Below are positions 39,108 to 50,680 of a DNA stretch of 64,000 bases, one piece after another. Every line of letters starts with the position of its first letter. The stretch's first letter is position 1. The translations under genes and the position numbers were made by a program. The notes under the pieces were generated by a model. The model was not told where the DNA came from and ran no database searches. It worked only from the letters and a program-made list of their open reading frames with translations. This DNA is from Lysobacterales bacterium 15-68-25 (GTDB lineage: Bacteria; Pseudomonadota; Gammaproteobacteria; Xanthomonadales; Rhodanobacteraceae), in NCBI GenBank assembly GCA_002279065.1, contig NCKB01000006.1:124001-188000 (forward strand), in the 5' to 3' direction.

Positions 39108-39331
39108 ACAAAGATTTGCTGCACCGCGAAAGGAAAAATCCACAACCAGAAGCTGGTTTCTCCGGAATTCGCGCGGCTACTGGCTCTCGACCTGGGTTGC
39201 GCGCCGGCCGTGTCGTCATGCGGTGCAGCAAGCATCGGTTTCCCGGCTGGGCATGACTCGCGGTCCGACGCCTCAAGGGCGGCGCGGGCACGCCGATAAG
39301 CGCTTGAAAGTCCCCACCTGTCGTTCGGGGC

Positions 39332-39347
39332 TGTGGTGCAGATCACA
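39332..39347. promoter_or_regulatory. CRP/Clp-like binding site
   Basis: TGTGG-TGCAGA-TCACA matches TGTGA-N6-TCACA with one change. Its centre is about 47 bases before the start predicted from TAAAAT at 39375-39380. In Xanthomonas the homologue Clp responds to cyclic-di-GMP; CRP in other groups to cyclic AMP. Confidence 0.6.
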
Positions 39348-39425
39348 GTCCGACGGCTGGACGGAGAGCGTCGTTAAAATTAAATTAATCAAAGCGCGCA
39401 CATGCATCTGTATTCTTATCTTGCA

Positions 39426-44961: not shown

Positions 44962-46725
44962 ATGACCTGGCAGGCCTGGGCCACGGTGGCGGTGATCGTC
45001 GCCGCGATGGCGCTGTTCGCCAGCGAGAAGGTGCGCATCGACCTGGTTGCGCTGATGGCGCTGGCGGCGCTGGTGATCCTCGGCGTGGTGAGTCCCGCCG
45101 AGGCGCTGAGCGGCTTCAGCAACGAGGCGACGGTGACCGTGGCGGCGATGTTCGCGCTGAGCATGGGGATCGAGCGCTCCGGCGCGCTGGAACCGCTGAG
45201 CCGGCTGCTGGTGAAGATCCGCCGGCCCTGGCTGCTGACCCTGGCGCTGATGCTGGCGATCGCCCCGCTGGGTGCGTTCATCAAGAACATCGCCCTGGTG
45301 GCCACCTTCCTGCCGCTGGCGCTGAAGGTGTGCCAGCGTACCGGCACGTCCCCCGGGCGCGTGCTCATGCCGATGGCGTTCGCCGCGCAGATGGGCGGCG
45401 TGTGCACCCTGATCGGCACCTCGTCCAACCTGCTCGCCGACACCCTGGCGCAGAAGCACGGACTGCCGCCGTTCGGCGTATTCGAGTTCACCGAACTGGG
45501 CGCCATCCTTGCCGTGGTCGGTATCGTCTACCTGATGCTGGTGGGCCGCTGGCTGCTGCCGCGGCACATCCACACCGACCTGCCGGTGCAGGTGGAGATC
45601 GGCAAGTACGTCACCGAACTGGAGGTGACCGAAAGCTCCTCGCTGCTGGGCAAGAGCATCGCCGATGCGGGCTTGGGCGAGCGCTACGGCGTGTACCCGC
45701 TGGAGCTGCTGCGCGGCGATCGCCGCACCTGGTCGCCGCGTTCGCAGCAGATCGCCCGCGGCGACGTGCTGCTGGTCCGCGGCGACTGGGACAAGATCGA
45801 GGAGTTCCGCCGCCAGGCCGGGCTGCGCAACGCACCGGAAGGCCACTACGCGCATACCGACGACCGCCAGCGTGTGCTGGCCGAGATCATGGTCGCGCCG
45901 GCCAGCGCGCTGGAGGGCCGGCGCTTCGGCGAGACCGGCATCGGCTGGCGCTACGACGCGGTGGCGCTGGCGATCCACCGTCGTGGCCAGGTGCTGCGCG
46001 AGAAGCTCAGTGACGTGGCACTCGCGGTCGGCGACGTGCTGCTGGTGCTGGTGCCGGAAGAGGCGATGGCGAACCTGCGCAACGACGAGTCGCTGATCGT
46101 GCTGAGCGAACGGGAAAACGCGCGCAGCACGCCGCGCAAGGCGCTCTACGCGGTGGGCATCATGGCTGCAGTGATCATTGCCTCCGGCATGCGCTGGCTG
46201 CCGATCCCGATCGCCGCGATCTGCGGTGCCACGGCAATGGCGTTGGCCGGCTGCTTCGGCCGCAAGGACGTCTACGAGGGCATGGACTGGAAGATCGTGA
46301 TCCTGCTCGGCGCGATCCTGCCGCTGGGCGTGGCGATCGAGAAGAGCGGGCTGTCCACCGCGGTGGTGCACGCCGGGATGGCCGTGGTCGGCAGCCACGG
46401 ACCGCTGGCGGCGTTGTTCATGGTGTACCTGCTCACCGCCCTGCTCACCGAACTGATGGGGCACAACCCATCGGTGGTGCTGATGGTCGGCATCGCCGCC
46501 TCGGTGGCGCACGCGATACATGTGGATCCGCGCCCGTTCGTGGTGGCGGTGGCGTTTGCTGCGGCGACCTCGTTCGCCACGCCGGTCGGCTACCCGACCA
46601 ATACCATGGTGTATTACGCCGGTGGCTACCGTTTCACCGATTTCATGAAGGTCGGCATTCCGCTGATCCTGCTGTTCTGCGCACTGTCGATGTGGCTCAT
46701 CCCCCGCTTCTGGCCGTTCCACTAG
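44962..46725 (+). CDS. SLC13/DASS-type transporter with two TrkA-C domains
   Basis: A 587-residue membrane carrier. Some five helices, then two TrkA-C (RCK-C) domains (about residues 210-375, ELEVTESSSLLGKSI and EIMVAPASALEGRRFGE), then further helices. GTSSNLL and GYPTNTMVY are the paired SNT/PTN motifs of anion carriers. Substrate unknown (dicarboxylate, sulfate or other anion). The upstream 231-base region between it and the patatin gene holds hairpins at 44822-44835 and 44841-44855. Confidence 0.88.
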   Translation: MTWQAWATVAVIVAAMALFASEKVRIDLVALMALAALVILGVVSPAEALSGFSNEATVTVAAMFALSMGIERSGALEPLSRLLVKIRRPWLLTLALMLAIAPLGAFIKNIALVATFLPLALKVCQRTGTSPGRVLMPMAFAAQMGGVCTLIGTSSNLLADTLAQKHGLPPFGVFEFTELGAILAVVGIVYLMLVGRWLLPRHIHTDLPVQVEIGKYVTELEVTESSSLLGKSIADAGLGERYGVYPLELLRGDRRTWSPRSQQIARGDVLLVRGDWDKIEEFRRQAGLRNAPEGHYAHTDDRQRVLAEIMVAPASALEGRRFGETGIGWRYDAVALAIHRRGQVLREKLSDVALAVGDVLLVLVPEEAMANLRNDESLIVLSERENARSTPRKALYAVGIMAAVIIASGMRWLPIPIAAICGATAMALAGCFGRKDVYEGMDWKIVILLGAILPLGVAIEKSGLSTAVVHAGMAVVGSHGPLAALFMVYLLTALLTELMGHNPSVVLMVGIAASVAHAIHVDPRPFVVAVAFAAATSFATPVGYPTNTMVYYAGGYRFTDFMKVGIPLILLFCALSMWLIPRFWPFH

Positions 46726-46813
46726 AAAGCCGGTCAGGAGTCGGGGCGAAAGAGCCACCAAGAAATCAGGGTTTTCCTTCAGGTGATTATCGGGCGGCAG
46801 GCTAGGCTTGCCC

Positions 46814-46835
46814 GGCGCCCATGTACTCGGGCGCC
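46814..46835 (+). promoter_or_regulatory. Stem-loop in the leader of the peptide gene
   Basis: GGCGCCC (46814-46820) and GGGCGCC (46829-46835) with an eight-base loop, 22 bases before the peptide start codon and ahead of its ribosome binding site. A TAGGCT box (46803-46808) lies just upstream. Confidence 0.45.
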
Positions 46836-46857
46836 ATTGCCATCACAAGGAAGAACC

Positions 46858-46971
46858 ATGAAGCAATTGAAGCTTGGGAATCTGGAAACCACGGTCTCTC
46901 CCGTGGGTGCGGCCGAGAGTCCGCTGATCATCGTGCTCGTCGTGCGCGGCGTGATGATTCTGCTGGCGTAA
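46858..46971 (+). CDS. 37-residue peptide with hydrophobic C-terminus, candidate modified-peptide precursor
   Basis: The peptide starts MKQLKLGNLETTVSP, then VGAAE, and ends in the hydrophobic segment SPLIIVLVVRGVMILLA. The polar first half and short apolar second half look like a leader and core, with Ala-Glu or Gly-Ala-Ala as possible cleavage sites, but no family is recognised. AAGGA sits at an ideal distance before ATG 46858. An 11-bp hairpin follows its stop. An alternative is a small single-helix membrane peptide or toxin. Confidence 0.6.
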   Translation: MKQLKLGNLETTVSPVGAAESPLIIVLVVRGVMILLA

Positions 46972-46980
46972 CCATCGCCG

Positions 46981-47010
46981 GTGATTGGCCCTTTCCGGGC
47001 CAATCACTTT
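46981..47010 (+). terminator. Perfect 11-bp hairpin between peptide gene and downstream operon
   Basis: GTGATTGGCCC (46981-46991) pairs fully with GGGCCAATCAC (46997-47007) around a five-base loop, followed by only TTT then GGGG. It probably acts as partial terminator or attenuator so that the peptide is made in excess, and it directly precedes the ribosome binding site of the next gene. Confidence 0.6.
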
Positions 47011-47025
47011 GGGGAGGGAATCCCG

Positions 47026-47841
47026 ATGAAAATACTGAATTCGCCTGTGCATCCGTGCATCGCGGATGCATTCACGCACTTCGCGCGCTCGAGCCCGCAC
47101 TTTTCAATCGATGCTGCCGCGGAGTTCATCGAATCGGTGGTCACCGGTGGACAGATCCGGGATGCGGTGAACCATGAATTGCGAACCACATTGGCGAACA
47201 ACCTTTACGAGAGTCCGTTCTGGACGACCAGGGGACTGGTGCTGGTAGCGGCGCCCTCGTTGATCCTGGCAGTGGACAAAGTGCCCGCGCATCAGTCCCG
47301 AGTGCTCAGCTCGCTCTCGCAAGACGCCGTGGTGATGTCGCTCACGGAGGGTGTGCATTACGACCGCTATGCGATGCCGGCGGATACGCGCCTGGACGTG
47401 CTCGACCCGGACGTGCAGCTGGTCATGAACGGCCATGCCATGCTGGATCGCGGGACGCCGCTGGCCGTCAGGGCGGAAGTGGATGTGATCGACTTCTACG
47501 CCCCCGGTGAACAGCGCTATCTCGTCAAGGCCATGTCGCCCGTGAGGCTGGACTTCACATGGTCCTTCGACCGGACCTCACTGAAGCCCTGGAACATCTC
47601 AGGCGCGCACCTGCTCGATGATCAGATCATGACCGCGCTGGAAGCTCTCGAGCATCTCGGCGGCGTCGAACATGCCGGCACCATCGAGCATTACCTTGAT
47701 GCGCGTAGTCACCACGTGCGGTGGAAGGCGCTGCAGACATTGAACGCGGTAGCGCCGGAAAGAGCGCTCTTGGCATTCGACCGCTTCTTGACCGATCCAC
47801 ATCCCCACATCCGTAAAGCCGCATCCGAAGCGCTGAACTAA
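47026..47841 (+). CDS. Unknown protein with beta-rich middle and HEAT-like end
   Basis: A 271-residue protein of no family I recognise. Residues 1-60 are helical, 65-180 beta-rich (FWTTRGLVLVAAP, RLDVLDPDVQLVMNG, AEVDVIDFYAPGEQRYLVK), and 215-271 look like HEAT-type helical repeats (HHVRWKALQTLNA, PHIRKAASEALN). This plan recurs in the next gene. GGGGAGGG precedes ATG 47026. First of three coupled genes; GC is lower than around it. Possibly a peptide-modifying enzyme or scaffold, by context only. Confidence 0.75.
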   Translation: MKILNSPVHPCIADAFTHFARSSPHFSIDAAAEFIESVVTGGQIRDAVNHELRTTLANNLYESPFWTTRGLVLVAAPSLILAVDKVPAHQSRVLSSLSQDAVVMSLTEGVHYDRYAMPADTRLDVLDPDVQLVMNGHAMLDRGTPLAVRAEVDVIDFYAPGEQRYLVKAMSPVRLDFTWSFDRTSLKPWNISGAHLLDDQIMTALEALEHLGGVEHAGTIEHYLDARSHHVRWKALQTLNAVAPERALLAFDRFLTDPHPHIRKAASEALN

Positions 47842-47843
47842 AC

Positions 47844-48719
47844 ATGGCGATTACCCTTTTCCCCGAAACAACCGAACAAATGACGCCTGTCGAGTTCTTG
47901 GACCACGTTGCCCGCAACGTGGACCCCTACTCCGACGAAAGCATCATGTCGGCTTCTCATGCGCTTGCGAAACTGGCGAGGAACCGTTCTTTCCTCGTGG
48001 ACTTCGTCAATTCGTATCTCCTTGCAGAGGCAGGAGGACCGCGAAGCGGCTTCTACAGCATGCAAAGCGCACTGCTTGGGCAGACTGACGACGGCGTCTT
48101 CAAACTTCGAGCAAATTTCTGGGCGCCGGTAAGAACCTCGGGCCGTGCGGCCCGCGACGAAGCGGCGCTGCTCTCCTACGAACTGGCCCATGACCACAAT
48201 TTCCCGTTCCTAACGATTGGATATTTTGGTCCTGGCTACGACACTCTCATTTACGAATACGACAAAAGCACGGTTGCAGGGTACGAGGGCGAGAGAGTCG
48301 AGCTGAGATTTCTTGAAAAGGCTCGGCTGGAAGTCAACAAGGTGCTCTTCTTTAGGCCGAGCACCGACATCCACATCCAACTGCCGCCGAAGTCATTCTC
48401 CATCTCGCTCAACCTTCTGGTTCATCGCAAGGACAACCCGCTGATTCCCCAGTACGTTTTCGACGTCGAGCGGGGAAACATCGCCGGTTTCGTCGATTCG
48501 ATCGATAACCTGCGCATCAAGTTTCTCCAGTTGGCCGGCCATGTGTTCGACGCCGACACACCTGACTTGCTTCGCGAAATCGCGAAAACGCATCGCTGTG
48601 TACGCACGCGGCAGATGGCTCTTCGAAGCCTGGCTCTGGCGTCACCCGAGGCAAAAGAGCAGGTCATGGCCATGGCGAAGGATCTACCCGAGCATTTGCG
48701 AGCCGAGCTGAGGACATGA
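47844..48719 (+). CDS. Unknown cupin-like protein with helical C-terminus
   Basis: A 291-residue protein. A helical N-part (1-60), then a beta-rich region with HDH at residues 116-118, GYFGPGYDTLIYEYD (126-140) and STDIHIQLPP with His177, which could be a cupin-type 2- or 3-His metal site. SISLNLLVHR follows. The C-terminal 230-290 is HEAT-like, as in the preceding protein. It starts two bases after the first gene and ends in a four-base overlap with the third. A metal-dependent oxygenase role is an inference. Confidence 0.75.
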   Translation: MAITLFPETTEQMTPVEFLDHVARNVDPYSDESIMSASHALAKLARNRSFLVDFVNSYLLAEAGGPRSGFYSMQSALLGQTDDGVFKLRANFWAPVRTSGRAARDEAALLSYELAHDHNFPFLTIGYFGPGYDTLIYEYDKSTVAGYEGERVELRFLEKARLEVNKVLFFRPSTDIHIQLPPKSFSISLNLLVHRKDNPLIPQYVFDVERGNIAGFVDSIDNLRIKFLQLAGHVFDADTPDLLREIAKTHRCVRTRQMALRSLALASPEAKEQVMAMAKDLPEHLRAELRT

Positions 48720-49570
48720 CACGCCGCCGGATCATTGGCATCGCCTTGCTGGGAGCCTCGTTAGGCATTTATGGCCTTTCCAGGACTTTCCCAGGAAGCC
48801 ATTTTTTTGCTTTGCTCCGTCTGCTCAAGTGGTTGCCGGCAGTTGTGTTCCTGCTGGTGGAGCTCGTGGCTGTCCTTTGGGTGTTCCGCCTGATCTTCTC
48901 GGAAACCACTCAGGAAAGCGAAATGCGAATCACCAGGGAGCTCCGCTGGATACCTGGTGCTCCCACCCGCAGCTTGCTGTTCGCCGAGATGCGGGTCTGG
49001 CTCTACGGTCTCAAGCCGCGCCGGCTAACGGGCTGGAAAGGCCAGTTGTTCACCTACGCGCGGCAAGGGGACAACGCCAAGATGCAGAAAATATTCCTCT
49101 ATCTGATGTGCATCGAGCTTCCGATCGCCCATTTGTTCCTTCGATTGTGGCTGACGCCGATGGCGCGATGGATCGTCACGCTCCTGTCCGCATACGTCGC
49201 GTTATGGATGTATGCGGAATTTCGTACCACCACGATGAGGCCGGTGTCGCTGGATGGTGACCTCTTGCAGATACGCTACGGCATCCTGCACACGTACGAG
49301 ATCCCCGTTGCCGTCATCCAGTCGGTCGCTCGGGTCGGTGTTCTTGAAGCAGGTGCGTATGACCTGAAGCTCGTTGGCTTTGGTGCGCCGAATGTTGGAC
49401 TTACATTGAAGATGCCAACAAGAACTCTGTTCGGTCGCCGGGTCACCTCGATAGCGCTCGCCGTTGACGAGCCTGCGCAACTTTTCGATGTGTTGCGCCA
49501 GGCACTCGCGCGCGCCGAAGTCGCCCGCAACGGCCACCTGTGCCCGCCAGAGCACGCAGGTTTCGTCTGA
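48716..49570 (+). CDS. Unknown membrane protein with PH-like domain
   Basis: A 284-residue protein with four predicted helices (about 4-20, 28-61 as one or two, 121-144 and 150-167) and a C-terminal bacterial PH-like segment (SLDGDLLQIRYGILHTYEIPV, residues about 177-197). It overlaps the previous gene by four bases (ATGA). Context suggests a membrane partner, for instance for export, immunity or anchoring; nothing in the sequence proves which. Confidence 0.7.
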   Translation: MTRRRIIGIALLGASLGIYGLSRTFPGSHFFALLRLLKWLPAVVFLLVELVAVLWVFRLIFSETTQESEMRITRELRWIPGAPTRSLLFAEMRVWLYGLKPRRLTGWKGQLFTYARQGDNAKMQKIFLYLMCIELPIAHLFLRLWLTPMARWIVTLLSAYVALWMYAEFRTTTMRPVSLDGDLLQIRYGILHTYEIPVAVIQSVARVGVLEAGAYDLKLVGFGAPNVGLTLKMPTRTLFGRRVTSIALAVDEPAQLFDVLRQALARAEVARNGHLCPPEHAGFV

Positions 49571-49699
49571 ATTCAGACGCCCGAGCCGGTGCGATGTCCA
49601 CTGCAGGCACTCGCGTCAGGTGCCCGTGCGCCGATCGTAGACATGCAGACACGTGTGCCTCGCGCCGGTCGGCTGCTCATCGAGACAAGATGAGCGGCT

Positions 49700-50680
49700 T
49701 CAGTGCGGCGCCATGTAGCCACTGAGGGCCAGCTGCAGCATGATCTTCATTTCCTCGCGCAGCGGCAGCGGCGCCACGATTTCCGCGTCCGGGCCGTACT
49801 TGAGCACGTCCATCAGCAACTCGCGCGAGTTCGAATACGGCACCTGCAGCTCGTAACGGCCGTCCGGCAGCCATTCGCCCTTCTGCTGCGAATGCCAGTG
49901 TTCGTCGGCTACCCAGCGCGCCGCGTGCGCGGAAAAGCGGATCGTCGCCCAGGCCTTGGGCTTGCCGGCGAAGATGCCGTAGCTGGAAGAGAGCATCTCG
50001 TTGAGGTCGCTGTCGGCGACGTCGATGGCCCGCTCGTCCTGTGCTTGCGGCTCGAGGATGCGATCCACCGCGAAGCTGCGCAGCGCTTCGCGGTCATGGT
50101 CCCAGGCGTCGAGGTACCAGTTGTCGCGGTAGTGGGTCAGCCGCTGCGGCGAAACGGTGCGTCTGCTGTCCGAATTGGTCGTGCGCGCGCGGTAGCGAAA
50201 GCGCAGCTGGCGACGCTCGAGCACCGCGCCGGCGGTGATCCGGAATACCTGCTGGTCGAGCTTGCGTTCGCCCCAGGCGATCACGCGGATGCGCTCGATC
50301 GGCAACGCCTTGCCGCTGCCCTGGTCGGACAGCAATCCCTCGATGCGTGCCTTGAACGGTGCCAGCGCACCGGCCAGCACGCCCGGTCCGCTGCGCCCGA
50401 TCAGCTCGTTGAGCGCGAGCAGGGCGGCCAACTCGTCGGAGGTCAGCCACAACCCTGGCAGCTCGAACCGTTCCCCCTCGCCGACCTCGTAACGGAACGC
50501 GGCCTGCTCGCCGCCGCCGCTCTCGATCGGCGCACCCAGTGCATCGCGCAGGAAGGCGATGTCGCGATAAAGCGTGGCGCGCGAACACTCCAGTTCGTCC
50601 ATCAGCCGCGGCAGCGGCACCGGGTAATGCGCGGATTTGAGCAACCGGTGCAGGGTGAGAATGCGCTCGTAACGGTCCAT
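49700..50680 (-). CDS. HTH-WYL transcriptional regulator (YafY/PafBC type)
   Basis: A 326-residue regulator. N-terminal winged HTH (MDRYERILTLHRLLKS, LERSRATLYRD-type segment) and a WYL domain with RDNWYLDAWDHDREALRSF (about 200-220). The C-terminal WCX extension is present (YELQVPYSNSRELLMDVL). WYL proteins sense ligands such as single-stranded DNA or nucleotides. Start ATG 50680 is chosen; 19 upstream codons are unlikely. Divergent from the membrane-protein gene at 50800. Confidence 0.9.
   Translation of the reverse strand: MDRYERILTLHRLLKSAHYPVPLPRLMDELECSRATLYRDIAFLRDALGAPIESGGGEQAAFRYEVGEGERFELPGLWLTSDELAALLALNELIGRSGPGVLAGALAPFKARIEGLLSDQGSGKALPIERIRVIAWGERKLDQQVFRITAGAVLERRQLRFRYRARTTNSDSRRTVSPQRLTHYRDNWYLDAWDHDREALRSFAVDRILEPQAQDERAIDVADSDLNEMLSSSYGIFAGKPKAWATIRFSAHAARWVADEHWHSQQKGEWLPDGRYELQVPYSNSRELLMDVLKYGPDAEIVAPLPLREEMKIMLQLALSGYMAPH

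Follow-up and report, generated by a model that had tools for sequence, protein, structure and literature searches.

What is made by a 3-kb cassette that places the gene for a short hydrophobic peptide ahead of two related proteins and a membrane protein? The question is raised by positions 46722 to 49713 (forward strand, as are all features given here) of a 64,000-nucleotide stretch from Lysobacterales bacterium 15-68-25 (contig NCKB01000006.1), the whole of which is referred to as the window. The cassette encodes a 37-residue precursor-like peptide (P0001, 46858 to 46971) and three further proteins, which we call B (P0002, 47026 to 47841), C (P0003, 47844 to 48719) and D (P0004, 48716 to 49570). 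A first-pass annotation of the DNA had proposed a peptide-modification cluster here, and its description of the layout was verified: the peptide open reading frame (ORF) is preceded by the ribosome binding site AAGGAA, B and C are separated by a gap of 2 bases, and C and D overlap by 4 bases. From comparison of sequences and predicted structures, we consider it probable that the cassette represents an undescribed class resembling the ribosomally synthesized and post-translationally modified peptides (RiPPs), in which the B-C pair would oxidise the hydrophobic peptide.

To place these genes among their relatives, 84,980 species genomes were scanned with a pattern, which returned 281 stretches; 228 of these encode relatives of C, and the best 80 of the 228 were kept. 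The 80 came from Pseudomonadota, Bacteroidota, Acidobacteriota, Actinomycetota (one Streptomyces) and Planctomycetota (one metagenome-assembled genome). Adding seven loci from the family of the source genome and the window itself, and removing duplicates of the window locus as well as L008, which appears identical to the Dyella monticola locus L047, left 87 loci (L numbers denote individual loci). B was found directly upstream of C in 86 of the 87, 74 being recognised by a first profile with a distance rule and 12 of the remaining 13 by a larger profile; L037 was the only locus in which no B was found upstream of C, and the B frame in L064 runs on. Two of nine P0002 matches in other genomes of the family (L009 and L010) were dropped since the profiles detected neither B nor C there. 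Three single loci deserve mention in their own right. B of Xanthomonas axonopodis DSM 3585 (L041, 7109 to 7997) extends over two overlapping ORFs and looks broken, with C and the peptide open; Mucilaginibacter endophyticus carries two B-C loci (L063 and L028) about 50 kb apart on the same contig; and L066, titled Bacillus sp. 2B10, has a locus and peptide of Sphingomonas type and is possibly mislabelled.

The first-pass annotation had made its proposal depend on whether related genomes keep the short ORF next to these genes, and many of them do. A shared pattern among short ORFs upstream of B was first spotted by eye, and a profile of 32 peptides was searched against 10,144 short ORFs, with matches near C counted at E≤0.01. 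By this measure 59 of the 87 loci carry the peptide, one of them on the opposite strand, a count that is partly circular because 27 loci had supplied the seed. The number rises to 71 when 12 cases that were read by eye or scored more weakly are included (L050, L059, L060, L083, L088, L090, L092, L096, L099, L063 with E 0.021, L094 with 0.045 and L098 with 0.16). In held-out tests at the same threshold, a profile of 18 peptides from outside Sphingomonadales, that of the window included, gave 14 matches near B-C (2257 ORFs) and 0 far from them (6296 ORFs) in 74 other loci, and a profile of 14 Sphingomonadales peptides gave 41 near matches in 40 loci (2355 ORFs) and 1 far match (5903 ORFs), again in 74 other loci; both test sets still contained some loci of the training clade. 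The ratio of nonsynonymous to synonymous differences (pN/pS) was 0.00 to 0.37 over 23 non-independent peptide pairs, whose selection at ≥75% amino-acid identity favours low ratios. Silent differences were high in the L003/L041 pair (pS 0.80, ratio 0.16), and low pN/pS with silent differences up to this level makes the peptide ORFs look translated and constrained.

The family also has the architecture of RiPP precursors, with a conserved N-terminal recognition part and a variable C-terminal core. Three copies of the peptide gene stand before B in L021 and L085, and two in L126, which resembles RiPP loci with multiple precursors. The window peptide, MKQLKLGNLETTVSPVGAAESPLIIVLVVRGVMILLA, has the N-terminal pattern of the peptides of L041, L003, L020 and L063 but matches the profile weakly. 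It was placed in the family chiefly for where it lies and because, by eye, it resembles MQAIVLDDLEVNVAPTGASDAVGGPLCVGVFVVLMLVPM (L041, Xanthomonas), MKAIHLDDLEVSIAPTGASDAVGGAVCGGVFVVLLLVPM (L003) and MNTNFKRVRLNDLEVNVSPVQSEQSSQAVVSLVVVVIIAL (L063).

The first-pass annotation had described B and C as two beta-rich, HEAT-tailed proteins of no recognised family. AlphaFold models of both, with predicted local distance difference test scores of 94-95, consist of a thiol-dioxygenase-type cupin with a HEAT-like tail. The nearest folds among the matches listed, the 50 best after re-ranking of Foldseek results, beyond which other folds are possible, are cysteine and mercaptosuccinate dioxygenases. B is a paralogue of C that lacks the three metal histidines, and B and C thus form one family. 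The suggestion that one protein of the cluster may bind metal gained support for C, in which the histidines of HDH (residues 116-118) and a later histidine (177) are present in all 45 aligned relatives, giving the three-histidine cupin of thiol dioxygenases on a confidently predicted fold. D175 and Q179 are also kept in all 45, and this conservation together with that of the histidines points to catalysis. C is likely the catalytic subunit and B a non-catalytic partner; that only one of the two paralogues has the metal site suggests a B-C heterodimer in which B places the substrate. The HEAT tails claimed earlier stood in part: HEAT_2 was matched by 43 of 46 aligned B proteins at E≤0.01, and both models terminate in helices, but P0002 itself falls under the Pfam HEAT cut-off (E 2.7e-5) and only 8 of 45 C proteins match, at E≤0.1.

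Sequence searches gave little beyond this. Pfam, NCBIfam and PDB returned no usable family for C, and essentially HEAT only for B. The nearness of its fold to cysteine and mercaptosuccinate dioxygenases would fit C being a plain small-molecule thiol dioxygenase, with the short ORF as a passenger or the leader peptide of an attenuator. However, C is not recognised as CDO_I (PF05995) by Pfam, with no match among 45 members at E≤0.1, and hhalign likewise found no direct link (probability 1.5 against 20 rows taken from the CDO_I loci of relatives, among which L165 was misframed). A protein motif common to peptides of different phyla and purifying selection between close pairs both fit a passenger poorly. 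The leader version draws on the hairpin that follows the short ORF (46980 to 47008); the sequence around it folds at -30.1 kcal/mol (z -3.47). The hairpin announced in the first-pass annotation is thus present, with 12 base pairs rather than 11; it has no T-run, and a terminator scan found no canonical intrinsic terminator after the peptide. A hairpin of the chosen score followed 38 of 68 relative peptides, compared with 105 of 1000 stretches drawn at random from those loci; some loci contributed more than one peptide to the 68, one locus is represented twice, and the random set was unmatched for intergenic position. In L003/L124 and L041 a copy of the peptide gene is found downstream of C, and in L047 one occupies the opposite strand, which means that the ORF is not merely a leader. 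Altogether, we give this explanation little credence.

The cassette behaves as one unit. In three genomes of the same genus (L121-L123), both flanks of the segment from 46722 to 49713 align by BLAST at 86-93% nucleotide identity, about 50 bases apart, and the 3-kb segment itself has no counterpart; the flanking genes in these sisters encode a permease upstream (96-97% protein identity) and a regulator downstream. The cassette is thus present as a whole in the window genome and absent as a whole from its three sisters, and this absence, together with related short ORFs beside related genes in other families and phyla, takes the layout beyond chance. Its GC content is 0.588, against 0.694 for the window and 0.692 and 0.670 for the flanking 3 kb. 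The 50% GC reported earlier for part of the second coupled gene was reproduced on recomputation (0.50 for 48181-48300), and 0.5% of 120-base windows across the 64 kb are equally low. The lowest values of the window (0.375-0.483) belong to 120-base windows starting at 39321-39401, outside the cassette.

Among 233 family genomes, C was found in 13, the source genome counted, and in 1 of 368 other genomes from an even draw of the class, and the latter figure marks the system as patchy. In a tree of 45 C proteins, well-supported branches force three label changes on the seven Rhodanobacteraceae rows, and C of the window groups beside Niveispirillum with modest support (80/72). Composition and tree point to horizontal movement of the cassette, for which loss in the sisters is the formal alternative. 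A viral origin was considered on a single IMG/VR contig encoding a C relative (L154) and set aside, and so was a plasmid origin, on C relatives in the records CP013927.1 (Alteromonas) and NZ_CP080241.1 (Vibrio), which are annotated as hypothetical proteins.

D, a membrane protein by its hydrophobic segments as read by eye, lies inside the inserted segment. The membrane protein of the first-pass annotation therefore does adjoin C within the unit, but it is no fixed part of the system, because its relatives sit in genomes without C: they were found in nine other genomes of the family, and the 12 others that carry C include none of these; in the eight D-relative regions examined, no peptide-profile match was nearby. 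Read by eye, D relatives lie between ftsK-like and lolA-like genes in four genomes of the family (L146, L147, L148 and L150), and in two more (L149 and L152) they follow an ftsK-like gene. D is a candidate for a protein that protects the producer.

RiPP systems often include genes for export or for cleavage of the leader. Relatives of an ABC (ATP-binding cassette) ATPase cluster occur no more than 6.5 kb from C in 12 loci, of which 10 do not belong to Sphingomonadales (L020-L023, L041, L063, L071, L078, L081 and L085) and two do (L062 and L095). Near the peptide-B-C genes of the Mucilaginibacter locus L063 stand a LanC-like gene, a MacB-type permease and an ABC exporter with a C39 peptidase; L085 (Lysobacter) has ABC and MacB genes, L081 an ABC exporter and L124 an ABC ATPase, and by eye an ABC-exporter-like gene follows C in L129 and L130. 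These ABC genes beside relatives speak against a further explanation, namely that the peptide is a toxin-like small membrane peptide neutralised by B-C and/or D in the manner of a toxin-antitoxin pair. The hydrophobic C-terminus of the peptide (maximum 15-residue hydropathy 2.95), the compactness and foreign composition of the cassette and the inclusion of a membrane protein in the unit all suit such a pair. A metal-enzyme fold with invariant ligands does not, and PADLOC-DB, which covers defence systems and not toxin-antitoxin pairs generally, gave no model match beyond the HEAT repeat of the tail. We regard this explanation as improbable.

Several observations weigh against modification of the peptide by B-C. 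No such peptide is in place in 16 of the 87 loci (L005, L006, L024, L025, L028-L033, L036-L038, L045, L074 and L081), which include all seven from Nevskiaceae and four of the five from Bacteroidota; L005 and L006 have a different short ORF at the peptide position, in L029 a weak profile match lies about 2.5 kb downstream, and the match in L036 is doubtful (E 0.1). P0001 ranks first among 336 short ORFs of the window with a profile built without it, at a weak E of 0.023 and with a runner-up at 0.025, and it belongs to none of the pN/pS pairs. The peptide cores have no residue type common to all. Cysteine is absent from 45 of 69 peptides, and both cysteine and internal methionine from 11 of the 69 (a set that includes weak matches up to E 0.2 and one duplicate), and peptide sulfur was accordingly rejected as a general target. 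The window cassette encodes no exporter or protease. Of 53 Sphingomonadales loci put to a pattern test, only 2 showed an ABC-like ORF at most 6.5 kb from C, a poor fit to a secreted weapon. Finally, a Ser-His-Tyr triad is a feature of the thiol dioxygenase family, and C lacks it: S188 is kept in 40 of 45 relatives, N190 in 43 of 45, and position 192 is mostly L or M.

Loss of the triad and the scarcity of nearby ABC genes in Sphingomonadales could instead be explained if B-C were a peptide-binding sensor or chaperone, with a three-histidine site that responds to oxygen or redox state, and the peptide an unmodified membrane signal or regulator. The Sphingomonadales peptides, in which conservation extends through the C-terminus within subgroups, agree with this as well. 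However, retention of the metal histidines, D175 and Q179 throughout the aligned C proteins is at odds with it, and the multi-copy peptides and the ABC and C39 exporters at other loci resemble RiPP loci. We judge a sensor or chaperone unlikely, somewhat less so than the two explanations discussed above.

We therefore return to oxidation of the peptide by B-C as the preferred reading. With gene order, coding constraint in the peptide family, predicted folds, metal-ligand residues, paralogy and presence or absence as a unit established here, the following mechanism is proposed. The cassette would yield a ribosomal peptide that is modified before use. The first ~20 residues (L..LE..V.P.GA) would be the part that is recognised, and the last ~16, which are hydrophobic, would form the core. 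B and C would form a complex that binds the leader, and the three-histidine metal centre of C, probably Fe(II) with O2, would oxidise the peptide, while B, the paralogue without a metal site, and the HEAT tails position or hold the substrate. Candidate sites of oxidation are the glycine that is near-invariant in the peptide motif and aliphatic residues of the core. The hairpin after the peptide gene may keep the peptide more abundant than the enzymes. The hydrophobic product would be released, by a route that is likewise conjectural, and may act at or across the membrane as a bacteriocin-like or signal peptide, from which D may protect the producer. A bolder version we offer only tentatively: a new RiPP class, with B-C pairs in five phyla, that relies on a thiol-dioxygenase-like enzyme joined in a heterodimer to its dead twin. 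Both subunits would carry HEAT-like tails, and the dimer would oxidise aliphatic or glycine residues of small membrane peptides in a reaction that depends on O2 and not on sulfur. To our knowledge, there is no known case of such an oxidation for the thiol-dioxygenase fold.

How does this proposal compare with known systems? The thiol dioxygenases (for cysteine, 3-mercaptopropionate and mercaptosuccinate, and including plant cysteine oxidases and ADO) share their fold, as predicted, with B and C, and the HxH and later histidine with C. They differ from the pair, which carries a HEAT-like tail, a histidine-less paralogous partner and an adjoining peptide gene; CDO_I rows of relatives also read S[LIV]H[IV]Y, whereas C has S[LI]N followed by two aliphatic residues, an equivalence drawn by eye from the motifs. 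As in the B-C proposal, a cupin-fold oxygenase operates in a ribosomal peptide pathway in the case of PbsQ, a JmjC-type cupin hydroxylase of a biphenomycin-like RiPP pathway (PMC12257519). PbsQ is JmjC-like and works alongside a multinuclear non-heme iron-dependent oxidative enzyme (MNIO), an arginase and a B12 radical S-adenosylmethionine (SAM) enzyme, whereas here the thiol-dioxygenase-type pair is the sole enzyme-like component. The first-pass annotation was right that no known maturase class is present: Pfam and NCBIfam contain no domain for YcaO, radical SAM, LanM/LanB or MNIO that matches P0001-P0004.

Daptides are also small hydrophobic ribosomal peptides; papers on them include PMC10036551 and PMC12670281. 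The NCBIfam daptide families did not match P0001-P0004, and daptide_Mpa2 matched 1 of 18 peptides with a weak score (E 0.028). Bacteriocins with double-glycine leaders use C39 exporters. A likeness to them is found in the VGG before the C-terminal part of some relative peptides and in the C39-ABC exporter of L063; unlike them, the window peptide has no GG and the window cassette no C39 exporter. No literature on a B-C pair with a peptide was found among the matches listed, drawn from open-access titles and the starts of abstracts, and no open-access paper in the library searched was found that combines 'thiol dioxygenase' and 'precursor peptide'. Within the open-access literature and family libraries searched, the class is undescribed; cupin hydroxylases in RiPP pathways are already known. 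It may have been overlooked because small peptides are easily missed in gene calling.

If the proposal is true, B-C would be a new maturation enzyme for the biosynthesis of ribosomal peptides, and the range of the thiol-dioxygenase fold, small thiols and N-terminal cysteines, would widen to include other peptide positions. The C motif HDHxFxF...DxHxQ with B upstream would then provide a search handle for hundreds of loci that are unnamed in the libraries searched.

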